A stretch of DNA of 64,000 bases from Sulfurimonas sp. (GTDB taxonomy: Bacteria; Campylobacterota; Campylobacteria; Campylobacterales; Sulfurimonadaceae), in NCBI GenBank assembly GCA_028689055.1, contig JAQTWZ010000006.1:1-64000 (forward strand). Reading direction: 5' to 3'. Shown here one piece after another: positions 8,542 to 24,889 of the stretch. Under the pieces are notes generated by a model. That model was not told the origin of the DNA. It did not search any database and saw only the letters and a program-made list of their open reading frames with translations. Position numbers and translations under genes: made by a program. Position 1 is the stretch's first letter. The number at the start of each line of letters is the position of its first letter.

Positions 8542-9024
8542 ATGCAAAAGATGCTAAGATGGTTTATCCCACTGCTTGCAGTTGGGGTTGCCGTATTTAT
8601 CATCTTTTTTTTAGTATCCATCAATTCTATACATGAGCAAAAAGAATTACAGCCGCTTTCGCTCTCAAATGAGGTTACTTCAAAAAAAACAAAAGATGTT
8701 TGGTTGAGTCATTTTTCACAAACACAAAAGCTTGGATACTTTTATCCTGTCAATGAAGTTTATGTCACAGTAGATCTCAATGAAAAAATAGTTAATGTTA
8801 TAACGTATGAACTTTCGGCCTCTCTTTTAGATCCTTATCAATTATTTTGTTTAAAAGAAGAATTACGAAGACACGCTCTGAAATATTATTTAAAAAAAGA
8901 CAAAGAGAACATAACATTACTTATTTATTCACAAGATGTAAATAAATTAAATACTTTAGTGAAAGTACTAAAAAACTATCAAATTTCGGCGACTATAAAG
9001 CCATATAAAGAGGAAAAAGAATGA
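8542..9024 (+). CDS. Hypothetical membrane-anchored protein between rpsA and serA
   Basis: 160 aa, N-terminal TM segment (WFIPLLAVGVAVFIIFFLV); overlaps the serA start. Confidence 0.7.
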   Translation: MQKMLRWFIPLLAVGVAVFIIFFLVSINSIHEQKELQPLSLSNEVTSKKTKDVWLSHFSQTQKLGYFYPVNEVYVTVDLNEKIVNVITYELSASLLDPYQLFCLKEELRRHALKYYLKKDKENITLLIYSQDVNKLNTLVKVLKNYQISATIKPYKEEKE

Positions 9025-10607
9025 AAAAACATACAATAGTTGTTTGTGACCATATCCATGAAGCCGGTTTAGCGATGCTTAGAAATGATAAAGATATCAA
9101 TTTTATCATGGCTGCTGATGAAGACAAAATAAAACTTCTAGATATTATTGCACAAGCGGATGTCGCGATTACAAGAAGTTCAACAGATGTTGATGCAAAA
9201 TTTATTGCTGCTGCAAAAAATATGAAAGCTATCGTTCGTGCAGGTGTTGGTGTGGATAATGTCGATATCGACGGCTGTTCAAAAGAGGGTATCATCGTTA
9301 TGAATGTACCTACTGCAAACACTATAGCAGCAGTTGAGCTTACTATGGCGCATATGCTTTCTTGTATGAGAATGTTTCCATATTCACACAACCATCTCAA
9401 ACTTGATAGAGTTTGGAAGCGTGAAAAATGGTATGGTTATGAGATGAAAGGCAAAAAACTCGGTGTTATCGGTTTTGGTAATATCGGTTCTCGTGTGGCG
9501 AAACGTGCACAGGCTTTTGAAATGGAGATTGTTGCGTATGATCCGTATATCCATCCATCAAAAGTAACAGACTGCGATATGACATATACGAAAAATTTTG
9601 AGGATATTTTGGCATGTGATATCATTACGATTCATACACCTAAAAATCAAGAGACTATCGGAATGATTGATGCACAAGAGATTGCAAAAATGAAAGACGG
9701 TGTTGTTCTTATCAACTGTGCGCGAGGTGGTCTTTATAATGAAGAAGCGCTTTATAATGGTTTGACGTCTGGAAAAATCCGCTTTGCAGGTATTGATGTA
9801 TTTAACAAAGAGCCGGCAACAGATCATCCTCTCCTTGATCTTGATAACGTCACAGTTTCACCACACTTAGGTGCAAACACATTTGAGTCACAGTACAATA
9901 TCGGTACAGAAGCAGCGCAAAACGCAATTGAAGCAGCAAAAGGTATCTCATTCGCTCATGCAATGAATTTACCTATTGATGAGAGTAAAATACCTTCATA
10001 TGTAAAACCATTTTTAGAGATGGGACAAAAGATAGGTTTCCTTGCATCTCAAATGAATAAATCACAAATCATTGCTATCAAAGTAAGCGGGCAGGGTGAT
10101 ATCTCAAACTATGTTGAATCACTTTCTACTTTTGTAGCTGTTGGTGCTATGAGCCAAAACAGCGGTGATACTATCAACTATGTAAACGCAGAGTTTGTTG
10201 CAAAAGAAAAAGGGATCAAGATAGAGTCTGAAGCTTTGGCTGATTCATCTGTATTTAAAAATCTTATCACTGTGAAACTTACTACGGCTGAAGGAACAAC
10301 ATCCATCAGCGCTACCATTTTTGATGATGGTGTGAAACGTATGGTTGCCATTGATGGTTTTGATATAGAAGTAGCACTCAAAGGCGATATGATCATGTTT
10401 AAAAACAGTGATGTACCGGGTGTTATCGGAAGTATTGGAACTACACTTGGCAAAAACAATGTAAATATTGCCGACTTCTCTTTGGCTCGTAACAATAAAG
10501 CTCAAGCACTTGCTATCATTTTAGTTGATAGCCCGGTAGATGAAAAAACACTCAGCGAACTTGAGTCACTTGAAGCGTGTATCAGCGTAAACTACGTACG
10601 TCTGTAA
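9021..10607 (+). CDS. serA: D-3-phosphoglycerate dehydrogenase (full-length copy)
   Basis: 528 aa; NAD-binding GFGNIGSRVAKRA, INCARGGLYNEEAL, C-terminal ACT domain. Confidence 0.95.
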   Translation: MKKHTIVVCDHIHEAGLAMLRNDKDINFIMAADEDKIKLLDIIAQADVAITRSSTDVDAKFIAAAKNMKAIVRAGVGVDNVDIDGCSKEGIIVMNVPTANTIAAVELTMAHMLSCMRMFPYSHNHLKLDRVWKREKWYGYEMKGKKLGVIGFGNIGSRVAKRAQAFEMEIVAYDPYIHPSKVTDCDMTYTKNFEDILACDIITIHTPKNQETIGMIDAQEIAKMKDGVVLINCARGGLYNEEALYNGLTSGKIRFAGIDVFNKEPATDHPLLDLDNVTVSPHLGANTFESQYNIGTEAAQNAIEAAKGISFAHAMNLPIDESKIPSYVKPFLEMGQKIGFLASQMNKSQIIAIKVSGQGDISNYVESLSTFVAVGAMSQNSGDTINYVNAEFVAKEKGIKIESEALADSSVFKNLITVKLTTAEGTTSISATIFDDGVKRMVAIDGFDIEVALKGDMIMFKNSDVPGVIGSIGTTLGKNNVNIADFSLARNNKAQALAIILVDSPVDEKTLSELESLEACISVNYVRL

Positions 10608-10624
10608 GTCAAACTTTCAAATTT

Positions 10625-10655
10625 TTTTACATCAAACACTTGGTTTGATGTAAAA
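10625..10655. terminator. Bidirectional intrinsic terminator between serA and the porin-like gene (unit 1)
   Basis: Perfect 13-bp stem ttttacatcaaac-acttg-gtttgatgtaaaa between convergent genes. Confidence 0.8.
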
Positions 10656-10663
10656 CTTCTTTA

Positions 10664-12061
10664 TTATTCCCCACCTTTCCTTTGAGTCGAAAATTTATAC
10701 ACGAACTGAAAAAATAGTTTTGTCGCATCATTTTGTGCGATATTGTTTTTTGTAATAAAATCACCTGCATCAAGATACGTTCCTATTACAGTAAAACTTA
10801 AATTATCTGTGGCCGTATATTTGAGTGTAAGGTCGTATTCATTTCCTATTTCTGTATAGCTGTTTCCAGGATTGTTTTTATAGCCAAAGGTGTACCAGCT
10901 GTCTGTTGGTTCTGCAAGACTAAAGTTATGAAACGCAGCCTTTAGTGAAAGTTTTTTTGTAGGATTCATCCAATACATCGCTTGATAATCACGCATGTTA
11001 GACCAGATCATAATATCCATTCGTCCGTAGTTCGGACCTGTTTTACTTCCAAATGGCGTTTCAAATGTTCCTTTCGTGGTATCGTTTGGATTTGTATCTC
11101 CTGAGGCATAGAGTGTCCCTAGAGTAAAGTGCGTTTTGTATGTATCATCAAAATAGTAGCCTGCTTTTGCAACATAAGCGTAAGCATCGATATCTTTTTC
11201 TCCATATCTACCCGTAGCTTTGATATATGTGGCATCATAGATAAAACCAATACTTTCATCATAAGTACGTGCTCCCGCGTAATAGGCTTTTTCATAAGGC
11301 TTTACTTCATGAAAGAGACCATTTCTCCATGCGGCAAACGGTTCGATTTTGAAAGCATCTTTTTCATAGTGGCTATAGATTCCAGCACCTTGATAAACGT
11401 GTTTTTCGACGATACTAAAATCATCAGGAGCAATAGTTCTTGTCTGTCCATACCAAACATCAATGAAGTTTTTATCTACAGCATAGGAGAGATGCGCAGC
11501 ATCCCAAAAAAATCCTATTGTATTTCCCCATGCACCGGGAGCAAATATTCTTCTGTCCCCGTATTCAAGATTTAATCTTCCAAGGGAAAAAGTTAGCCCT
11601 GATGTAAGAAAGTTGTATTTGCGTATATAGGTTTCATGAAGCTCATGATGATCATCATAATAACTTGCACCATATTCATCCGCTGTACCTTTGTTCGCCA
11701 GAAAATCATCTGCTTGCAAAGAAGAGTCCCATGAGCGAGAGTCATACATATAGGCTTTTATCTCCCAATTCATAGCCGGCAGATAGGTGAAACCTGCAAG
11801 TATCTGATGGAGATAAAGTGTATCGTTTGAGACACCTTTAACATTGCCTTTTGCGTCTATTGCCGCATCACCGTAGGTGAGTTTGTTTACCCCATCGTAG
11901 CTATCTATGCGACCTCGATAATAACCATTAAAAACTAACGTCTCTTTTTCTTTTACAACCGAATCTGGAGTCTGAGCGTATGTGTTGTGCGTGAAAGCTA
12001 GCATGAGCAGTAAGAGTTTTGAGTAGTTTGTGATACTACTCACCCCAATATTTTTACGCAT
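10664..12061 (-). CDS. Outer-membrane porin-like protein (unit 1 copy)
   Basis: Probable start MRKNIGVSSITNYSKLLLLMLAFTHNTYAQ (signal peptide), then aromatic-rich beta-barrel-like sequence ending LFFQFVYKFSTQRKGGE. The ORF track extends to 12139. Confidence 0.75.
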   Translation of the reverse strand: MRKNIGVSSITNYSKLLLLMLAFTHNTYAQTPDSVVKEKETLVFNGYYRGRIDSYDGVNKLTYGDAAIDAKGNVKGVSNDTLYLHQILAGFTYLPAMNWEIKAYMYDSRSWDSSLQADDFLANKGTADEYGASYYDDHHELHETYIRKYNFLTSGLTFSLGRLNLEYGDRRIFAPGAWGNTIGFFWDAAHLSYAVDKNFIDVWYGQTRTIAPDDFSIVEKHVYQGAGIYSHYEKDAFKIEPFAAWRNGLFHEVKPYEKAYYAGARTYDESIGFIYDATYIKATGRYGEKDIDAYAYVAKAGYYFDDTYKTHFTLGTLYASGDTNPNDTTKGTFETPFGSKTGPNYGRMDIMIWSNMRDYQAMYWMNPTKKLSLKAAFHNFSLAEPTDSWYTFGYKNNPGNSYTEIGNEYDLTLKYTATDNLSFTVIGTYLDAGDFITKNNIAQNDATKLFFQFVYKFSTQRKGGE

Positions 12062-12165
12062 AATATTTCCTTCTTTATCGCTATATCTAAAATTATATAA
12101 CGATTTATATAAAATTACAAGTGTTATACTATTAAACAATGTATCAAAAAAATAAATGCAAATTT

Positions 12166-12189
12166 CATTCTCGCCTAGATGCGAGAATG
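12166..12189 (-). terminator. Stem-loop terminator after the RND operon (unit 1)
   Basis: Perfect 9-bp stem cattctcgc-ctagat-gcgagaatg just downstream of the RND stop on the minus strand. Confidence 0.65.
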
Positions 12190-12199
12190 GGGGAGGAAT

Positions 12200-13912
12200 T
12201 TATGGTTCGAAAATAGATACTGCTTTTTTCTCGTGGAAATGAAAGTGTTTTTCTAAGTCTGCGTTATAAAGCAAAACCGGAACGATAACAAGTGAAGCGA
12301 TAACAGCCGCAATGGTACCAAATATGAGAGAGACTCCAAGACCGCCAAATACTGCGTCTCCGGCTAGAAGGGTAGAAGCTAGGATAATGGCAGCAGCAGT
12401 TAAGAAGATTGGTTTAGCGCGTGTGGATGTAGCAAAGGCAATGGCTTCGGCTTTGTGCATACCTTTTTCGTGCATGAGCGACTTTGTAAAGTCTATCAGT
12501 AGAAGAGAATTACGTGAACTTATCCCGATAAGAGCGATAAATCCGATAAGAGAAGTTGCTGTTAGGAAAAAAGTATCATGTGTGAAAAGATCCATAATCC
12601 AGTGCCCAACGATAACCCCTATGATAGAGAGGAACGAACCAAGCAAAATGATACCGCTAAGTGTGTAGCTTTTGTAGTAGATAACCATAAGCAAAAAGAT
12701 AAGTACGAGTGCCGCTATAAACGCAGCTCCAAGTTCCACGAAGGTGTCGAGCGTGACTTCCATCTCACCATCCCAGATAAGTTTATAAATAGCTCCGCTT
12801 TGTTTATCTGTAAGCTCAAGGTTGAAAAGACCTATTTTTTCAATCTTATAAGTATCAGAAAAAGTATCTAAGATAATGTTTCTTGCTTCCATTAAAGGAT
12901 AGACTTGTGAAACCATATCCGTCTCAGCCATGACATTTGTCATCTGGTGCAGGTTTTTGTTCATGATCATAGGATTGGATTTTTTTGGTACAACGCTAAC
13001 AAGTTCTGTAATAGGAATCATCATTCCCATACTATTCATCAGTTTTAAAGATGCTAGTTTATATTTGACTGCGTTTATGTCTTTGGAGGTAAATTGTTTG
13101 GACTCTTGACTCAAAGAGAGATGTATAGGAATCTGATCATTATATTTATCTGAGTTTTTTACAGCAATCTGCATTCCTTCAAACGCAAGATAGAGGATGT
13201 CATTGAGTTGTTTGATAGAAACTCCGGAGAGAGAAACTTTTGTCGTGTCAACTTTAATTTCGTAGCTATCATAGATATAATCTTGCATGATATCAACATC
13301 TACTAAACCTTTTGTATTTTCAAATACATCGGCTACTCTGTTGGAGAGTGCACGGATTCCATCTGCATTTTCTCCATAAACTTCAGCGACAATAGCTGCC
13401 ATAACAGGAGGTCCTGCAGGTGGTTCGACAAAAGAGATTGAAGTGTTTTTATGGATGGCGGTACAGCTTTGCAAAATAAGCGGTCGCATTCTTTGAACCA
13501 TAAAATAAGAAGGCTCTTCTCTATCGTGTTTTTTTGTAAGGTTGAGGACTATTTCTGCAACATTTTCTGAGTTTTTGAAGTGAGAGCCTTTGATAAGCCC
13601 AGCAAAATCAAGGGGAGAGCCCATACCTAAAAAAACTTCCGTATCAAGAACTTCACTCTCTTTTTGTACAAATCCTACGACACAATCGCTTACTTCTTTC
13701 GTTTGAGAGATAGAGCTCCCCTCTGGAAGATCTATATAAATAGTAAAAGTGTCATTATTTTTTCCCGGAAGCATTTTTGCCAAAACCATCTTTGTAGGTG
13801 CAATCATCATAATAGAGAGGATAAACGCAAGTAAAGTACCAAGGAGAATCAATTTTCTTTGTGTAGCACTTTGAATACCTGACAATACTGCGTTTTCAAA
13901 TTTTTTAAACAT
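12200..13912 (-). CDS. RND efflux permease, C-terminal half (unit 1 copy)
   Basis: 570 aa; starts just before a TM segment, contains periplasmic-loop-like sequence and a terminal TM block (IGISSRNSLLLIDF...IFLTAAAIILAS); AcrB/MexF-type. Confidence 0.85.
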   Translation of the reverse strand: MFKKFENAVLSGIQSATQRKLILLGTLLAFILSIMMIAPTKMVLAKMLPGKNNDTFTIYIDLPEGSSISQTKEVSDCVVGFVQKESEVLDTEVFLGMGSPLDFAGLIKGSHFKNSENVAEIVLNLTKKHDREEPSYFMVQRMRPLILQSCTAIHKNTSISFVEPPAGPPVMAAIVAEVYGENADGIRALSNRVADVFENTKGLVDVDIMQDYIYDSYEIKVDTTKVSLSGVSIKQLNDILYLAFEGMQIAVKNSDKYNDQIPIHLSLSQESKQFTSKDINAVKYKLASLKLMNSMGMMIPITELVSVVPKKSNPMIMNKNLHQMTNVMAETDMVSQVYPLMEARNIILDTFSDTYKIEKIGLFNLELTDKQSGAIYKLIWDGEMEVTLDTFVELGAAFIAALVLIFLLMVIYYKSYTLSGIILLGSFLSIIGVIVGHWIMDLFTHDTFFLTATSLIGFIALIGISSRNSLLLIDFTKSLMHEKGMHKAEAIAFATSTRAKPIFLTAAAIILASTLLAGDAVFGGLGVSLIFGTIAAVIASLVIVPVLLYNADLEKHFHFHEKKAVSIFEP

Positions 13913-15522
13913 TAATGGTCTCCTTTTTCATTGTGATCTGGTTTTTTGAGCATTCTTACTGCGAGATACGGTGTAAATATATACGCTACAAAAAGTGAAG
14001 CGATAAGAGCTACAGGGACATTTGCAGGGATTGGTTTCATAAACTGCCCCATCATTTGTCCTACAAACGCCATAGGTACCATCGTCATGATGATAGCAAG
14101 TGTGGCTATATTTGTCGGCGGTCCTATTTCATCAGTTGCTTTTATCATCAGTTCATCAGGTGTTTCATGGATTGATTCGATGGAGTGATAGTGTCTGTGA
14201 ATGTTCTCAATAACAATAATAGCCGCATCAACGAGAAGCCCGAGTGAGAGTAAAAACGCAAAGAGGGTAATTCTATTGATAGTTTGTCCCGTGAGATAAG
14301 CGATAAAAAGGGTGATAGCCAAGATAGCCGGAACTGTAAAAGTGACGATAAGAGATTCTCTCCATCCAAGCACAAGAACAAGCAAAATTGCAATGATTAC
14401 GATAGATAAAAGTAGGTGAAATACAAGTTCGTTGACCGCTTCATTGGCTCTTTCTCCATCATTTCTAGTGATGACATAACTGATGCCGTTTTGTGCTAAA
14501 AACTCTTTGTAAATCTCTAGCTCTTTTTTCACCGCATCAGCAATGAGAACCGCGTTTGTACCTTGAAGTTTTGAGACGGTAAGCGTTACCTGCTCTTTCA
14601 TCGGAGTAAATTTGCCTGTTTCATCTTTGACACTAATAGTCGCTGATTTGAAGTTTTGTATATCATAAGAATCATCTATTTTCGCCACTTGCGAGAGATG
14701 GATAGGTGAGCCCATATATTGTGCGACGATGATATTGCCAATATCTTTAGAAGATTCTATTGCGTTTTCTACGCCCAACATCACGATAGTATTCTCTTTG
14801 CTTGTATTTTTTATAGCAGGAACACTGTATGCGAGTGATTGTACGGCTTGCGTTATTTGTCCCATTGAGAGGTTATAAGCTGAGAGTTTGTTCAAATCTA
14901 CTTCAATATTAAATTGGTGTTTATGTCCGCCTTTGAGTTGTGTGACGGCGACGTTATCAAGTCCGTTGATATGATGCTGGATTTTTTTGACTCTATCATA
15001 AAGTTCTGTGGTGCTCATGTCTTGAGTTTTTGAGAAAAACGCTACGGAAACTATAGGGATATCGATGTCTATATCCAAAGGTTTGATGATAGGATTCATT
15101 GCTCCTGCAGGAAGAATATCTAAGTTTTGCATGATTTTGTCATACACTTTTAGGTTTGAATCTTCTTTTTTTTCACCGATGTAAAACGCAGCCGTGATGA
15201 TGCCGACATTGTCCATAGCGCGGCCATAGATATGTTCAACACCTTTGACTTCTTTCATCTTGCGCTCAAGCGGTTGTACGATAACTTTTTGTATCTCAGC
15301 GGCACTTGCACCCGGAAGAGCTACGATAACAGTCGAACCGCTGACAACCATTTGCGGATTTTCTTCACGTGGCATCACCATCAGTGCTAGATATCCGATA
15401 GAGAGTAAAAATATACCCAGAACGATTGTAAGCGGATTTCTTAAAAATGTCTTCGCCAATTTACCGGCATAATCTGTTGGTACATAAGGTTTGGTATGTT
15501 TCATAGTCTCCACCTTAGTCAA
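13912..15522 (-). CDS. RND efflux permease, N-terminal half (unit 1 copy)
   Basis: 536 aa; NPLTIVLGIFLLSIGYLALMVMPREENPQ...LLSLGLLVDAAIIVIENIHRHY; stop overlaps the next ORF start (TAATG). Confidence 0.88.
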   Translation of the reverse strand: MTKVETMKHTKPYVPTDYAGKLAKTFLRNPLTIVLGIFLLSIGYLALMVMPREENPQMVVSGSTVIVALPGASAAEIQKVIVQPLERKMKEVKGVEHIYGRAMDNVGIITAAFYIGEKKEDSNLKVYDKIMQNLDILPAGAMNPIIKPLDIDIDIPIVSVAFFSKTQDMSTTELYDRVKKIQHHINGLDNVAVTQLKGGHKHQFNIEVDLNKLSAYNLSMGQITQAVQSLAYSVPAIKNTSKENTIVMLGVENAIESSKDIGNIIVAQYMGSPIHLSQVAKIDDSYDIQNFKSATISVKDETGKFTPMKEQVTLTVSKLQGTNAVLIADAVKKELEIYKEFLAQNGISYVITRNDGERANEAVNELVFHLLLSIVIIAILLVLVLGWRESLIVTFTVPAILAITLFIAYLTGQTINRITLFAFLLSLGLLVDAAIIVIENIHRHYHSIESIHETPDELMIKATDEIGPPTNIATLAIIMTMVPMAFVGQMMGQFMKPIPANVPVALIASLFVAYIFTPYLAVRMLKKPDHNEKGDH

Positions 15523-16303
15523 TGTCTATAGTTGCATACATGCCAGGATAAACAGCGTTATTTGTGTTTTTGAAAGATATTTTTATCTTAAATGTATGTG
15601 TCATCGGATTGGAGCTTGGGATAATCGCACTCACTGTTCCTATGCTTGTGATACCCAAAGATGGAATGTTGATTTTGACTTTTTTCCCAAGTTGTACAAG
15701 TGCAAGATTGTCCTCTGCGATTTCTGCAGATATTTTGAGATTACTCAAATCAGACAAAACAATCGCAGGCATTCCCGGCATAGCCATCTCTCCGACTTTG
15801 ATATTTTTGGAGATGACGACACCGTCATTTGGAGCTTGTACATTGAGGTAACGGTATTGATTTTTTACTTCAGCGAGTTGCGCTTTTGCCTGTTCTACTT
15901 GTTTGGCTGCGATGATAATCATATCGGCAAGATTTCTCTCTGCGAGCTCAAGATTTTCTACTTCGTATTTTGAGACCATATCTTTTTCCAGAAGTCTTTT
16001 GTGACGCTCAAGATTGAGTTTAATATTTGTGTATTGGTTTTGGTACATCTGCAGGCTCAGTTGCGCCTGAGAGATACCAAGCTGTACCTGCGTCATAGCA
16101 GAATCTATCTCTTTGGAATCAATCGTATATAAAAGCGCGTCTTTTTTGACATAATCGCCTTCAGAAACAGCGACTTGTGTCACAAATCCCATAAAACGGC
16201 TTGTTATCATTTTTTGGTTATCAGAAATGACACCTCCTGAGAGTGTTAATGTCTCTGCTAAAAGTGAAGCGCCAAGGGCTGCCAAAAGTAAAATTTTTCT
16301 CAT
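15515..16303 (-). CDS. RND membrane-fusion (periplasmic adaptor) protein (unit 1 copy)
   Basis: SGGVISDNQKMITSRFMGFVTQVAVSEGDYVKKDALLYTIDSKEI...VQAPNDGVVISKNIKVGEMAMPG; HlyD/AcrA-like lipoyl motifs. Confidence 0.88.
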   Translation of the reverse strand: MRKILLLAALGASLLAETLTLSGGVISDNQKMITSRFMGFVTQVAVSEGDYVKKDALLYTIDSKEIDSAMTQVQLGISQAQLSLQMYQNQYTNIKLNLERHKRLLEKDMVSKYEVENLELAERNLADMIIIAAKQVEQAKAQLAEVKNQYRYLNVQAPNDGVVISKNIKVGEMAMPGMPAIVLSDLSNLKISAEIAEDNLALVQLGKKVKINIPSLGITSIGTVSAIIPSSNPMTHTFKIKISFKNTNNAVYPGMYATIDID

Positions 16304-16833
16304 TTGTTTTCTCCGTTTGCTAATTTTTCAAGTGCAAAAATTCTTTCATTTTTTTTGTTTTTCGTCATTTGTAACTGCAGTATCTTTTGAATCTGCTCTG
16401 ATTGTTTGATGATAACATCGCTCATGGAAGAGAGTTTTTCTCTGTATCTTCCTTCATAGTTTTTATAGATTTCATCTGCGAGTGTCAGCTCTTGTTCGAG
16501 AAAAGAGATCTCTTCATCAAAAGATGTGATTTCAGTTCGGATTTTCTCGACTTGCAAAGCTATGCCTTGACGGGCAAGTTCTAGCTGCGTTTTCGTTTTA
16601 AGTTTTTCTACTTGGGATTTTTCCAGTTGTGCATTATCCGCACCACCGTGGAAAATATTCCATGAGGCTCTTGCACCGATGGTATAAGCTCTATGGTCGA
16701 TAGCGTCACCTAAAAAAGTGTCATCAGCAGTTGAAGCTTCTGCAAAAGCACCTACAGTAGGGTAAAACGCAGCTTTTGAAACATCTAGCATATTCTCTTG
16801 TATCGCAAGACCTGTATTTGCTTTTTTGAGATC
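16300..16833 (-). pseudogene. TolC-like outer-membrane factor, 3' fragment (5' part lost at duplication junction)
   Basis: DLKKANTGLAIQENMLDVSKAAFYPTVGAFAEAS... matches the C-terminal half of the intact 23525..24889 ORF, then switches to antisense serA at 16834 (ORF track 16300..17052). Confidence 0.9.
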
Positions 16834-17832
16834 TTGGCATGTGATATCATTACGATTCATACACCTAAAAATCAAGAGACTATCGGAATGATTGATGCAC
16901 AAGAGATTGCAAAAATGAAAGACGGTGTTGTTCTTATCAACTGTGCGCGAGGTGGTCTTTATAATGAAGAAGCGCTTTATAATGGTTTGACGTCTGGAAA
17001 AATCCGCTTTGCAGGTATTGATGTATTTAACAAAGAGCCGGCAACAGATCATCCTCTCCTTGATCTTGATAACGTCACAGTTTCACCACACTTAGGTGCA
17101 AACACATTTGAGTCACAGTACAATATCGGTACAGAAGCAGCGCAAAACGCAATTGAAGCAGCAAAAGGTATCTCATTCGCTCATGCAATGAATTTACCTA
17201 TTGATGAGAGTAAAATACCTTCATATGTAAAACCATTTTTAGAGATGGGACAAAAGATAGGTTTCCTTGCATCTCAAATGAATAAATCACAAATCATTGC
17301 TATCAAAGTAAGCGGGCAGGGTGATATCTCAAACTATGTTGAATCACTTTCTACTTTTGTAGCTGTTGGTGCTATGAGCCAAAACAGCGGTGATACTATC
17401 AACTATGTAAACGCAGAGTTTGTTGCAAAAGAAAAAGGGATCAAGATAGAGTCTGAAGCTTTGGCTGATTCATCTGTATTTAAAAATCTTATCACTGTGA
17501 AACTTACTACGGCTGAAGGAACAACATCCATCAGCGCTACCATTTTTGATGATGGTGTGAAACGTATGGTTGCCATTGATGGTTTTGATATAGAAGTAGC
17601 ACTCAAAGGCGATATGATCATGTTTAAAAACAGTGATGTACCGGGTGTTATCGGAAGTATTGGAACTACACTTGGCAAAAACAATGTAAATATTGCCGAC
17701 TTCTCTTTGGCTCGTAACAATAAAGCTCAAGCACTTGCTATCATTTTAGTTGATAGCCCGGTAGATGAAAAAACACTCAGCGAACTTGAGTCACTTGAAG
17801 CGTGTATCAGCGTAAACTACGTACGTCTGTAA
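16834..17832 (+). pseudogene. serA 3' fragment at the duplication junction
   Basis: LACDIITIHTPKNQETIGMIDAQEI... identical to the C-terminal portion of serA; the upstream part (MYRKTCICFFEI) is antisense tolC (ORF track 16798..17832). Confidence 0.9.
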
Positions 17833-17849
17833 GTCAAACTTTCAAATTT

Positions 17850-17880
17850 TTTTACATCAAACACTTGGTTTGATGTAAAA
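17850..17880. terminator. Bidirectional intrinsic terminator (unit 2 copy)
   Basis: Copy of 10625..10655 at +7225. Confidence 0.8.
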
Positions 17881-17888
17881 CTTCTTTA

Positions 17889-19286
17889 TTATTCCCCACC
17901 TTTCCTTTGAGTCGAAAATTTATACACGAACTGAAAAAATAGTTTTGTCGCATCATTTTGTGCGATATTGTTTTTTGTAATAAAATCACCTGCATCAAGA
18001 TACGTTCCTATTACAGTAAAACTTAAATTATCTGTGGCCGTATATTTGAGTGTAAGGTCGTATTCATTTCCTATTTCTGTATAGCTGTTTCCAGGATTGT
18101 TTTTATAGCCAAAGGTGTACCAGCTGTCTGTTGGTTCTGCAAGACTAAAGTTATGAAACGCAGCCTTTAGTGAAAGTTTTTTTGTAGGATTCATCCAATA
18201 CATCGCTTGATAATCACGCATGTTAGACCAGATCATAATATCCATTCGTCCGTAGTTCGGACCTGTTTTACTTCCAAATGGCGTTTCAAATGTTCCTTTC
18301 GTGGTATCGTTTGGATTTGTATCTCCTGAGGCATAGAGTGTCCCTAGAGTAAAGTGCGTTTTGTATGTATCATCAAAATAGTAGCCTGCTTTTGCAACAT
18401 AAGCGTAAGCATCGATATCTTTTTCTCCATATCTACCCGTAGCTTTGATATATGTGGCATCATAGATAAAACCAATACTTTCATCATAAGTACGTGCTCC
18501 CGCGTAATAGGCTTTTTCATAAGGCTTTACTTCATGAAAGAGACCATTTCTCCATGCGGCAAACGGTTCGATTTTGAAAGCATCTTTTTCATAGTGGCTA
18601 TAGATTCCAGCACCTTGATAAACGTGTTTTTCGACGATACTAAAATCATCAGGAGCAATAGTTCTTGTCTGTCCATACCAAACATCAATGAAGTTTTTAT
18701 CTACAGCATAGGAGAGATGCGCAGCATCCCAAAAAAATCCTATTGTATTTCCCCATGCACCGGGAGCAAATATTCTTCTGTCCCCGTATTCAAGATTTAA
18801 TCTTCCAAGGGAAAAAGTTAGCCCTGATGTAAGAAAGTTGTATTTGCGTATATAGGTTTCATGAAGCTCATGATGATCATCATAATAACTTGCACCATAT
18901 TCATCCGCTGTACCTTTGTTCGCCAGAAAATCATCTGCTTGCAAAGAAGAGTCCCATGAGCGAGAGTCATACATATAGGCTTTTATCTCCCAATTCATAG
19001 CCGGCAGATAGGTGAAACCTGCAAGTATCTGATGGAGATAAAGTGTATCGTTTGAGACACCTTTAACATTGCCTTTTGCGTCTATTGCCGCATCACCGTA
19101 GGTGAGTTTGTTTACCCCATCGTAGCTATCTATGCGACCTCGATAATAACCATTAAAAACTAACGTCTCTTTTTCTTTTACAACCGAATCTGGAGTCTGA
19201 GCGTATGTGTTGTGCGTGAAAGCTAGCATGAGCAGTAAGAGTTTTGAGTAGTTTGTGATACTACTCACCCCAATATTTTTACGCAT
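17889..19286 (-). CDS. Outer-membrane porin-like protein (unit 2 copy)
   Basis: Translation identical to unit 1 copy. Confidence 0.75.
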   Translation of the reverse strand: MRKNIGVSSITNYSKLLLLMLAFTHNTYAQTPDSVVKEKETLVFNGYYRGRIDSYDGVNKLTYGDAAIDAKGNVKGVSNDTLYLHQILAGFTYLPAMNWEIKAYMYDSRSWDSSLQADDFLANKGTADEYGASYYDDHHELHETYIRKYNFLTSGLTFSLGRLNLEYGDRRIFAPGAWGNTIGFFWDAAHLSYAVDKNFIDVWYGQTRTIAPDDFSIVEKHVYQGAGIYSHYEKDAFKIEPFAAWRNGLFHEVKPYEKAYYAGARTYDESIGFIYDATYIKATGRYGEKDIDAYAYVAKAGYYFDDTYKTHFTLGTLYASGDTNPNDTTKGTFETPFGSKTGPNYGRMDIMIWSNMRDYQAMYWMNPTKKLSLKAAFHNFSLAEPTDSWYTFGYKNNPGNSYTEIGNEYDLTLKYTATDNLSFTVIGTYLDAGDFITKNNIAQNDATKLFFQFVYKFSTQRKGGE

Positions 19287-19390
19287 AATATTTCCTTCTT
19301 TATCGCTATATCTAAAATTATATAACGATTTATATAAAATTACAAGTGTTATACTATTAAACAATGTATCAAAAAAATAAATGCAAATTT

Positions 19391-19414
19391 CATTCTCGCC
19401 TAGATGCGAGAATG
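19391..19414 (-). terminator. Stem-loop terminator after the RND operon (unit 2 copy)
   Basis: Copy of 12166..12189 at +7225. Confidence 0.65.
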
Positions 19415-19424
19415 GGGGAGGAAT

Positions 19425-21137
19425 TTATGGTTCGAAAATAGATACTGCTTTTTTCTCGTGGAAATGAAAGTGTTTTTCTAAGTCTGCGTTATAAAGCAAA
19501 ACCGGAACGATAACAAGTGAAGCGATAACAGCCGCAATGGTACCAAATATGAGAGAGACTCCAAGACCGCCAAATACTGCGTCTCCGGCTAGAAGGGTAG
19601 AAGCTAGGATAATGGCAGCAGCAGTTAAGAAGATTGGTTTAGCGCGTGTGGATGTAGCAAAGGCAATGGCTTCGGCTTTGTGCATACCTTTTTCGTGCAT
19701 GAGCGACTTTGTAAAGTCTATCAGTAGAAGAGAATTACGTGAACTTATCCCGATAAGAGCGATAAATCCGATAAGAGAAGTTGCTGTTAGGAAAAAAGTA
19801 TCATGTGTGAAAAGATCCATAATCCAGTGCCCAACGATAACCCCTATGATAGAGAGGAACGAACCAAGCAAAATGATACCGCTAAGTGTGTAGCTTTTGT
19901 AGTAGATAACCATAAGCAAAAAGATAAGTACGAGTGCCGCTATAAACGCAGCTCCAAGTTCCACGAAGGTGTCGAGCGTGACTTCCATCTCACCATCCCA
20001 GATAAGTTTATAAATAGCTCCGCTTTGTTTATCTGTAAGCTCAAGGTTGAAAAGACCTATTTTTTCAATCTTATAAGTATCAGAAAAAGTATCTAAGATA
20101 ATGTTTCTTGCTTCCATTAAAGGATAGACTTGTGAAACCATATCCGTCTCAGCCATGACATTTGTCATCTGGTGCAGGTTTTTGTTCATGATCATAGGAT
20201 TGGATTTTTTTGGTACAACGCTAACAAGTTCTGTAATAGGAATCATCATTCCCATACTATTCATCAGTTTTAAAGATGCTAGTTTATATTTGACTGCGTT
20301 TATGTCTTTGGAGGTAAATTGTTTGGACTCTTGACTCAAAGAGAGATGTATAGGAATCTGATCATTATATTTATCTGAGTTTTTTACAGCAATCTGCATT
20401 CCTTCAAACGCAAGATAGAGGATGTCATTGAGTTGTTTGATAGAAACTCCGGAGAGAGAAACTTTTGTCGTGTCAACTTTAATTTCGTAGCTATCATAGA
20501 TATAATCTTGCATGATATCAACATCTACTAAACCTTTTGTATTTTCAAATACATCGGCTACTCTGTTGGAGAGTGCACGGATTCCATCTGCATTTTCTCC
20601 ATAAACTTCAGCGACAATAGCTGCCATAACAGGAGGTCCTGCAGGTGGTTCGACAAAAGAGATTGAAGTGTTTTTATGGATGGCGGTACAGCTTTGCAAA
20701 ATAAGCGGTCGCATTCTTTGAACCATAAAATAAGAAGGCTCTTCTCTATCGTGTTTTTTTGTAAGGTTGAGGACTATTTCTGCAACATTTTCTGAGTTTT
20801 TGAAGTGAGAGCCTTTGATAAGCCCAGCAAAATCAAGGGGAGAGCCCATACCTAAAAAAACTTCCGTATCAAGAACTTCACTCTCTTTTTGTACAAATCC
20901 TACGACACAATCGCTTACTTCTTTCGTTTGAGAGATAGAGCTCCCCTCTGGAAGATCTATATAAATAGTAAAAGTGTCATTATTTTTTCCCGGAAGCATT
21001 TTTGCCAAAACCATCTTTGTAGGTGCAATCATCATAATAGAGAGGATAAACGCAAGTAAAGTACCAAGGAGAATCAATTTTCTTTGTGTAGCACTTTGAA
21101 TACCTGACAATACTGCGTTTTCAAATTTTTTAAACAT
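19425..21137 (-). CDS. RND efflux permease, C-terminal half (unit 2 copy)
   Basis: Translation identical to 12200..13912. Confidence 0.85.
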   Translation of the reverse strand: MFKKFENAVLSGIQSATQRKLILLGTLLAFILSIMMIAPTKMVLAKMLPGKNNDTFTIYIDLPEGSSISQTKEVSDCVVGFVQKESEVLDTEVFLGMGSPLDFAGLIKGSHFKNSENVAEIVLNLTKKHDREEPSYFMVQRMRPLILQSCTAIHKNTSISFVEPPAGPPVMAAIVAEVYGENADGIRALSNRVADVFENTKGLVDVDIMQDYIYDSYEIKVDTTKVSLSGVSIKQLNDILYLAFEGMQIAVKNSDKYNDQIPIHLSLSQESKQFTSKDINAVKYKLASLKLMNSMGMMIPITELVSVVPKKSNPMIMNKNLHQMTNVMAETDMVSQVYPLMEARNIILDTFSDTYKIEKIGLFNLELTDKQSGAIYKLIWDGEMEVTLDTFVELGAAFIAALVLIFLLMVIYYKSYTLSGIILLGSFLSIIGVIVGHWIMDLFTHDTFFLTATSLIGFIALIGISSRNSLLLIDFTKSLMHEKGMHKAEAIAFATSTRAKPIFLTAAAIILASTLLAGDAVFGGLGVSLIFGTIAAVIASLVIVPVLLYNADLEKHFHFHEKKAVSIFEP

Positions 21138-22747
21138 TAATGGTCTCCTTTTTCATTGTGATCTGGTTTTTTGAGCATTCTTACTGCGAGATACGGTGTA
21201 AATATATACGCTACAAAAAGTGAAGCGATAAGAGCTACAGGGACATTTGCAGGGATTGGTTTCATAAACTGCCCCATCATTTGTCCTACAAACGCCATAG
21301 GTACCATCGTCATGATGATAGCAAGTGTGGCTATATTTGTCGGCGGTCCTATTTCATCAGTTGCTTTTATCATCAGTTCATCAGGTGTTTCATGGATTGA
21401 TTCGATGGAGTGATAGTGTCTGTGAATGTTCTCAATAACAATAATAGCCGCATCAACGAGAAGCCCGAGTGAGAGTAAAAACGCAAAGAGGGTAATTCTA
21501 TTGATAGTTTGTCCCGTGAGATAAGCGATAAAAAGGGTGATAGCCAAGATAGCCGGAACTGTAAAAGTGACGATAAGAGATTCTCTCCATCCAAGCACAA
21601 GAACAAGCAAAATTGCAATGATTACGATAGATAAAAGTAGGTGAAATACAAGTTCGTTGACCGCTTCATTGGCTCTTTCTCCATCATTTCTAGTGATGAC
21701 ATAACTGATGCCGTTTTGTGCTAAAAACTCTTTGTAAATCTCTAGCTCTTTTTTCACCGCATCAGCAATGAGAACCGCGTTTGTACCTTGAAGTTTTGAG
21801 ACGGTAAGCGTTACCTGCTCTTTCATCGGAGTAAATTTGCCTGTTTCATCTTTGACACTAATAGTCGCTGATTTGAAGTTTTGTATATCATAAGAATCAT
21901 CTATTTTCGCCACTTGCGAGAGATGGATAGGTGAGCCCATATATTGTGCGACGATGATATTGCCAATATCTTTAGAAGATTCTATTGCGTTTTCTACGCC
22001 CAACATCACGATAGTATTCTCTTTGCTTGTATTTTTTATAGCAGGAACACTGTATGCGAGTGATTGTACGGCTTGCGTTATTTGTCCCATTGAGAGGTTA
22101 TAAGCTGAGAGTTTGTTCAAATCTACTTCAATATTAAATTGGTGTTTATGTCCGCCTTTGAGTTGTGTGACGGCGACGTTATCAAGTCCGTTGATATGAT
22201 GCTGGATTTTTTTGACTCTATCATAAAGTTCTGTGGTGCTCATGTCTTGAGTTTTTGAGAAAAACGCTACGGAAACTATAGGGATATCGATGTCTATATC
22301 CAAAGGTTTGATGATAGGATTCATTGCTCCTGCAGGAAGAATATCTAAGTTTTGCATGATTTTGTCATACACTTTTAGGTTTGAATCTTCTTTTTTTTCA
22401 CCGATGTAAAACGCAGCCGTGATGATGCCGACATTGTCCATAGCGCGGCCATAGATATGTTCAACACCTTTGACTTCTTTCATCTTGCGCTCAAGCGGTT
22501 GTACGATAACTTTTTGTATCTCAGCGGCACTTGCACCCGGAAGAGCTACGATAACAGTCGAACCGCTGACAACCATTTGCGGATTTTCTTCACGTGGCAT
22601 CACCATCAGTGCTAGATATCCGATAGAGAGTAAAAATATACCCAGAACGATTGTAAGCGGATTTCTTAAAAATGTCTTCGCCAATTTACCGGCATAATCT
22701 GTTGGTACATAAGGTTTGGTATGTTTCATAGTCTCCACCTTAGTCAA
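21137..22747 (-). CDS. RND efflux permease, N-terminal half (unit 2 copy)
   Basis: Translation identical to 13912..15522. Confidence 0.88.
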   Translation of the reverse strand: MTKVETMKHTKPYVPTDYAGKLAKTFLRNPLTIVLGIFLLSIGYLALMVMPREENPQMVVSGSTVIVALPGASAAEIQKVIVQPLERKMKEVKGVEHIYGRAMDNVGIITAAFYIGEKKEDSNLKVYDKIMQNLDILPAGAMNPIIKPLDIDIDIPIVSVAFFSKTQDMSTTELYDRVKKIQHHINGLDNVAVTQLKGGHKHQFNIEVDLNKLSAYNLSMGQITQAVQSLAYSVPAIKNTSKENTIVMLGVENAIESSKDIGNIIVAQYMGSPIHLSQVAKIDDSYDIQNFKSATISVKDETGKFTPMKEQVTLTVSKLQGTNAVLIADAVKKELEIYKEFLAQNGISYVITRNDGERANEAVNELVFHLLLSIVIIAILLVLVLGWRESLIVTFTVPAILAITLFIAYLTGQTINRITLFAFLLSLGLLVDAAIIVIENIHRHYHSIESIHETPDELMIKATDEIGPPTNIATLAIIMTMVPMAFVGQMMGQFMKPIPANVPVALIASLFVAYIFTPYLAVRMLKKPDHNEKGDH

Positions 22748-23528
22748 TGTCTATAGTTGCATACATGCCAGGATAAACAGCGTTATTTGTGTTTTTGAAA
22801 GATATTTTTATCTTAAATGTATGTGTCATCGGATTGGAGCTTGGGATAATCGCACTCACTGTTCCTATGCTTGTGATACCCAAAGATGGAATGTTGATTT
22901 TGACTTTTTTCCCAAGTTGTACAAGTGCAAGATTGTCCTCTGCGATTTCTGCAGATATTTTGAGATTACTCAAATCAGACAAAACAATCGCAGGCATTCC
23001 CGGCATAGCCATCTCTCCGACTTTGATATTTTTGGAGATGACGACACCGTCATTTGGAGCTTGTACATTGAGGTAACGGTATTGATTTTTTACTTCAGCG
23101 AGTTGCGCTTTTGCCTGTTCTACTTGTTTGGCTGCGATGATAATCATATCGGCAAGATTTCTCTCTGCGAGCTCAAGATTTTCTACTTCGTATTTTGAGA
23201 CCATATCTTTTTCCAGAAGTCTTTTGTGACGCTCAAGATTGAGTTTAATATTTGTGTATTGGTTTTGGTACATCTGCAGGCTCAGTTGCGCCTGAGAGAT
23301 ACCAAGCTGTACCTGCGTCATAGCAGAATCTATCTCTTTGGAATCAATCGTATATAAAAGCGCGTCTTTTTTGACATAATCGCCTTCAGAAACAGCGACT
23401 TGTGTCACAAATCCCATAAAACGGCTTGTTATCATTTTTTGGTTATCAGAAATGACACCTCCTGAGAGTGTTAATGTCTCTGCTAAAAGTGAAGCGCCAA
23501 GGGCTGCCAAAAGTAAAATTTTTCTCAT
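22740..23528 (-). CDS. RND membrane-fusion protein (unit 2 copy)
   Basis: Translation identical to 15515..16303. Confidence 0.88.
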   Translation of the reverse strand: MRKILLLAALGASLLAETLTLSGGVISDNQKMITSRFMGFVTQVAVSEGDYVKKDALLYTIDSKEIDSAMTQVQLGISQAQLSLQMYQNQYTNIKLNLERHKRLLEKDMVSKYEVENLELAERNLADMIIIAAKQVEQAKAQLAEVKNQYRYLNVQAPNDGVVISKNIKVGEMAMPGMPAIVLSDLSNLKISAEIAEDNLALVQLGKKVKINIPSLGITSIGTVSAIIPSSNPMTHTFKIKISFKNTNNAVYPGMYATIDID

Positions 23529-24889
23529 TTGTTTTCTCCGTTTGCTAATTTTTCAAGTGCAAAAATTCTTTCATTTTTTTTGTTTTTCGTCATTTGTAAC
23601 TGCAGTATCTTTTGAATCTGCTCTGATTGTTTGATGATAACATCGCTCATGGAAGAGAGTTTTTCTCTGTATCTTCCTTCATAGTTTTTATAGATTTCAT
23701 CTGCGAGTGTCAGCTCTTGTTCGAGAAAAGAGATCTCTTCATCAAAAGATGTGATTTCAGTTCGGATTTTCTCGACTTGCAAAGCTATGCCTTGACGGGC
23801 AAGTTCTAGCTGCGTTTTCGTTTTAAGTTTTTCTACTTGGGATTTTTCCAGTTGTGCATTATCCGCACCACCGTGGAAAATATTCCATGAGGCTCTTGCA
23901 CCGATGGTATAAGCTCTATGGTCGATAGCGTCACCTAAAAAAGTGTCATCAGCAGTTGAAGCTTCTGCAAAAGCACCTACAGTAGGGTAAAACGCAGCTT
24001 TTGAAACATCTAGCATATTCTCTTGTATCGCAAGACCTGTATTTGCTTTTTTGAGATCAAGGTTTGCATTTAAAATCTCTTCGTTGCTGTACGAGGGCAT
24101 AGGGACTTCGGTATCAGGTGTTTGTATCACATCTACTTTTTGGTTGAGTAAAAAACTGATGTAGTGATAAAGAAGTTTTTCGTTTGCGTCCATCTGCACC
24201 AAAAGTCTCTGAACATTTCCTTTTTTCGCCTGAACTTCCAAAAGATCTACATTTTTCGCATAACCTACATCTATCATAGTTTTTGTAGTGTTTTCCAAAG
24301 TTTTGATGTTCTCAAAAATAGTTGTAAGATGTTTTTTGGAACTCTGTAGCAGTGCCATATCGTAGTAGCTTTTTCTGAGTTGATAGATCTGTTCTGCGGT
24401 GATTTGCTCTTTATCAAGTGTTTTCATTTTTTGCATCGCGCTCATGATATCTTCATAGCTTGAGATGGCAAAGCCTGTGAAAAGAGGTACTTCGTATTTG
24501 AGTTTTGTCTGGAAAAAGTTTCGGGCATCTGGGTAGTTTAGGTCTTGTGGAGGGGTAGTATAATCAGGAGTTCCAGCTAAAAAATTACCCATAAATTCTT
24601 CTGCACCAAAATCCCCAAAGTTCGCCTCACGCGAAGCGAGTTTAAACCCAAAAACATTTCCTGCGTCATTGGACCTAGCTATATCCTGCGTCAAGTCAAG
24701 TTTACCCCAGTGGTTTGCTGAGACTATTTCCTTGTCCATTGCGGCAGAATCTACATCAAAACCTGCGTTTTTTATTTCAAGATTTTTTTCTTTTAAAATA
24801 TCAATTGCTTCGTTCAAACTCAAAGGAGAATCGACCTGTGAAGCGTGTAAGAATAGCGCAAGAGAGAGGATACTCACTATTTTTTTCAT
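23525..24889 (-). CDS. TolC-like outer-membrane efflux protein (intact)
   Basis: 454 aa; signal peptide MKKIVSILSLALFLHASQ, SLNEAIDILKEKNLEIKNA, coiled-coil-rich OEP domains; first gene of the RND operon. Confidence 0.88.
   Translation of the reverse strand: MKKIVSILSLALFLHASQVDSPLSLNEAIDILKEKNLEIKNAGFDVDSAAMDKEIVSANHWGKLDLTQDIARSNDAGNVFGFKLASREANFGDFGAEEFMGNFLAGTPDYTTPPQDLNYPDARNFFQTKLKYEVPLFTGFAISSYEDIMSAMQKMKTLDKEQITAEQIYQLRKSYYDMALLQSSKKHLTTIFENIKTLENTTKTMIDVGYAKNVDLLEVQAKKGNVQRLLVQMDANEKLLYHYISFLLNQKVDVIQTPDTEVPMPSYSNEEILNANLDLKKANTGLAIQENMLDVSKAAFYPTVGAFAEASTADDTFLGDAIDHRAYTIGARASWNIFHGGADNAQLEKSQVEKLKTKTQLELARQGIALQVEKIRTEITSFDEEISFLEQELTLADEIYKNYEGRYREKLSSMSDVIIKQSEQIQKILQLQMTKNKKNERIFALEKLANGENK

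Follow-up and report, generated by a model that had tools for sequence, protein, structure and literature searches.

An exact 7,225-bp tandem repeat around an RND efflux operon with a split permease gene in a short-read Sulfurimonas draft genome

Comparison of a 64,000-base window with itself, the window being bases 1-64,000 of the 81,585-bp contig C73 of a Sulfurimonas draft assembly, identifies a perfect tandem repeat of most of an RND efflux operon and its neighborhood. Positions 9609-16833 are the same as positions 16834-24058 over 7,225 bp, with 0 mismatches and 0 indels, and the two direct copies stand head to tail, as assembled, in the interior of the contig. When the origin of the assembly is brought into this picture, we consider the chance about even that the repeat reflects a real tandem duplication in some or all of the sampled population.

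The repeat unit and its genes

When the window is laid against itself at an offset of 7,225, 9609-16833 is the sole matching run of at least 15 bases. A sequence-only reading had proposed a perfect repeat free of indels, with its left breakpoint inside serA and its right breakpoint inside tolC, and the base-by-base comparison of the two units bears this out, including the edges and the junction as it quoted them. An exact repeat of this length greatly exceeds chance expectation, the next longest inside one contig being 251 bp in the 1.14 Mb of assembly surveyed (49% of the genome, taken in stretches).

Copy 1 (9609-16833), delimited by exact match, open reading frames, and family profiles, holds the 3' part of serA, a porin, the C-terminal and N-terminal halves of an RND permease, a periplasmic adaptor (MFP), and the 3' part of tolC, and so presents a headless operon; the serA end lies on the plus strand and all other genes on the minus strand. 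Its porin, an outer-membrane protein of the Alginate_exp family (PF13372, 110 bits), occupies 10664-12139 and recurs at 17889-19364. The permease halves are found at 12200-13912 (C-terminal, PF00873 profile positions 526-1017) and 13912-15522 (N-terminal, positions 2-498), with second copies at 19425-21137 and 21137-22747, and the adaptor (TIGR01730, 117.1 bits against a cut-off of 94.9) at 15515-16303 and 22740-23528. The identical copy 2 (16834-24058) runs on into an intact, 454-aa outer-membrane factor of the TolC family (23525-24889, minus strand; PF02321). On the other side, the phosphoglycerate dehydrogenase gene serA (9021-10607, plus strand; 528 aa; TIGR01327, 601 bits against a cut-off of 454) is likewise intact. 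Both outer genes are full length in relatives and collinear with them.

The fragments lie at the center of the repeat. The tolC 3' fragment (16300-16833, minus strand) retains 177 residues and lacks the first 277 codons, while the serA fragment (16798-17832, plus strand) encodes the last 332 residues of SerA behind 12 residues of antisense tolC. As it is without SerA residues 1-196, its predicted product is probably not a working enzyme on its own. A 13-bp hairpin separates the convergent porin and serA ends at 17850-17880, with no T tail on the minus strand, and a second is present at 10625-10655.

The division of the permease is a separate matter from the repeat. This AcrB-type protein is encoded by two genes, each of about half size (536 and 570 aa; together 12200-15522 and 19425-22747) that meet between its two internal repeats, and the profile is cleanly divided between PF00873 positions 498 and 526. 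Each of the 78 relatives possessing both halves also encodes them as separate genes, and in 72 the stop of one overlaps the start of the next by one base. The split is an old, conserved arrangement and no frameshift, and it is a more durable observation than the tandem repeat; a paper on a two-gene RND permease was not found in the literature searched. The N-terminal half (13912-15522, minus strand) has LLVDAAIIVIEN, with one Asp where AcrB has two, a one-Asp form that we take to be that of the CusA/CzcA metal pumps. Under the NCBIfam subfamily cut-offs, the permease reached no RND class.

The gene order serA, (porin), RND C-half, RND N-half, MFP, tolC is common to relatives, and none of the 80 relatives' loci contains a second copy. 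Across 135 genomes of the genus, a comparison that covers other species, the adaptor is found in 112, as a single copy in 110 and as two pieces on different contigs in 1, and side-by-side tandem copies occur solely in the genome studied here. Twelve of the single-copy genomes consist of one contig each, so the collapse of repeats in drafts cannot explain all single copies. A porin homologue of >35% identity is present at the locus only in the nearest two relatives (L004 and L005); in L006-L083 the porin slot is empty or holds other sequence.

The repeat in a k = 127 assembly

The assembly is a draft of 82 contigs and 2.317 Mb, 99.58% complete. In five pairs of contigs, the end of one matches the start of the other over exactly 127 bases; other contig ends have exactly 125 or 127 bases in common. 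Contig-end overlaps of exactly the largest k-mer have been reported for metaSPAdes and MEGAHIT (PMC10914622), and the 127-bp overlaps identify this as a short-read de Bruijn assembly of the SPAdes type with k = 127. The start of the present contig (1-127) is common to the ends of three other contigs (C68, C60, and C33) and adjoins an IstB-like (IS21) gene fragment at 216-698. Gaps of 100 N number 14 in the 1.14 Mb sampled, and 4 of these have an identical 127-mer on both sides (C14:3863-4216, C60:5211-5564, C12:26907-27260, and C17:3951-4304), a scaffolding artefact that would make false short repeats. At 2,533 bp, the smallest of the roughly 46 contigs examined is suggestive of a binned genome but no proof of one. 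The lack of a 16S gene was not retained as proof that the genome is a metagenome bin, as the gene could sit in the N-reading starts of C13, C15, and C18.

Because the longest other internal repeat in the sampled sequence is 251 bp, the library was unable to span, order, or count units of 7.2 kb. The k = 127 graph of the contig branches solely at the unit ends, and deletion of one unit leaves no branch. Tandem copies thus form one loop and are read along one path; their identity is therefore automatic and is no clock of age. The sequence-only reading offered a very recent duplication or an artefact: both readings stand, but "very recent" loses its support. SPAdes-type assemblers unroll graph loops, a behavior for which no description was found in the literature searched, and we infer that the copy number of two was the assembler's decision, and not one taken from reads crossing the unit. 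The sole sequence that is necessarily read-derived is the novel tolC|serA junction at 16833/16834, where 126 junction-spanning 127-mers are absent from the rest of the contig. Scaffold joins in the assembly are marked by 100 N; this join has no N and was hence traversed through sequence. An origin of the repeat as overlap left untrimmed in a circular long-read contig was rejected, because the genome is a short-read draft of 82 contigs and the unit is internal to a longer one.

Duplication, chimera, or mixed population

The join has 0 + 0 bp of microhomology, as the sequence-only reading had stated, and 54% of random joins (random position pairs, this window) also have 0 bp. The word TTTTGAG, pointed out near both breakpoints, is present at 9596-9602 and 24049-24055, but shared words of at least 7 bases within 15 bp of both breakpoints are found for 5.7% of random position pairs in this window. 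Given these random rates, neither the word nor the 0 bp is significant, and TTTTGAG was rejected as a microhomology cause of the join (p = 0.057). In agreement with the earlier reading, no long homology, IS, or flanking repeat was found at the breakpoints in the window and the sampled assembly, which rules out IS- or repeat-mediated unequal crossing-over. Ku-dependent end-joining was also rejected, as no Ku homologue was found in the genome.

It can be hypothesized that the contig is a short-read graph loop written twice, in the order flank A, R, junction, R, and flank B with R as the unit, and that this loop would arise since the sequenced DNA contained the tolC|serA junction. The most likely source of that junction would be an ordinary tandem duplication through illegitimate joining with little or no homology. 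An exact unit with a clean, N-free junction, the 126 private 127-mers in a graph that branches at the unit ends only, and outer genes that are intact and collinear with relatives all argue for such a duplication. Junctions of this kind are documented in bacteria, with 0-5 bp of identity in Acinetobacter baylyi (PMC9997567) and, for 3 of 5 isolates of Pseudomonas fluorescens, no evident homology (PMC7661048); against this, microhomology was seen at 40 of 40 sequenced junctions of Escherichia coli lac amplification (PMC3161906), whereas the join here has 0 bp and no Ku homologue was found. The limited span of the library and the absence of the tandem copy from the other genomes of the genus also weigh against a real duplication.

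A serious competitor, which we hold to be somewhat short of an even chance, is an assembly artefact: tolC and serA would have been fused in one or a few chimeric library molecules, graph cleaning would have left the spurious edge in place, and a single traversal of the loop by the assembler would have doubled a single-copy region. The SPAdes-type assembly with its exact end overlaps, the doubling of sequence elsewhere at four scaffold gaps, the single copy throughout the rest of the genus, and a 0-bp join at arbitrary sites in two genes, the commonest random outcome, are consistent with it. Wrong repeat counts and artificially concatenated sequence have also been described as errors in metagenome assemblies (PMC7111523). 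However, the join is without N, and for a chimeric edge to arise at k = 127 all 126 junction-specific k-mers must be tiled by reads, read support that we infer for the junction. Sampling of 49% of the assembly revealed no second loop of this kind. Low-coverage graph edges are, moreover, normally pruned by assemblers.

It is improbable, in our view, that the single copy is the majority state and that only a minority of cells has the duplication or an excised 7.2-kb circle sharing the junction, although a circle joined R to R and a tandem R-R would give the identical k-mer graph and duplications were heterogeneous within evolving P. fluorescens populations (PMC7661048). The unit shows no integrase, IS, or origin, and its content is that of a chromosomal operon.

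If a real tandem duplication is accepted, the resulting cell would have intact serA and tolC and one complete tolC-MFP-RND-RND-porin operon with its upstream region, in copy 2. Copy 1 would begin at tolC codon 278 with antisense serA before it and might be read only by read-through from porin/serA' or from a chance promoter; transcripts from the operon promoter must cross both the 17850-17880 hairpin and roughly 1 kb of antisense serA. Such read-through may occur, as the hairpin has no T tail on the minus strand. Since copy 1 is headless and the serA fragment is probably non-working, a dosage benefit is not evident, and the lack of an obvious selected gain also counts against a real duplication. 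We regard a recent selected amplification of the split-gene RND efflux operon, seen at a two-copy stage in a natural Sulfurimonas population, as unlikely. A real duplication would be a further natural example, here with an efflux operon, and of modest general significance; an artefact would mean that perfect multi-kilobase tandem repeats in short-read drafts are not countable as amplification without depth or long-read evidence.

Both outcomes have known counterparts. The repeat-number and concatenation errors of metagenome assemblies (PMC7111523) are alike in involving an exact, identical repeat that short reads cannot span and that a repeat finder detects. Compared with the non-recurrent tandem duplications of A. 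baylyi cat and E. coli lac, the 0 bp seen here in the assembly falls within the 0-5 bp of the former and differs from the 40/40 microhomology of the latter. The Sulfurimonas repeat resembles both systems in that its copies are direct and head to tail, its endpoints fall inside genes and have no IS or long repeat, there is one novel junction, and the outer genes are intact.
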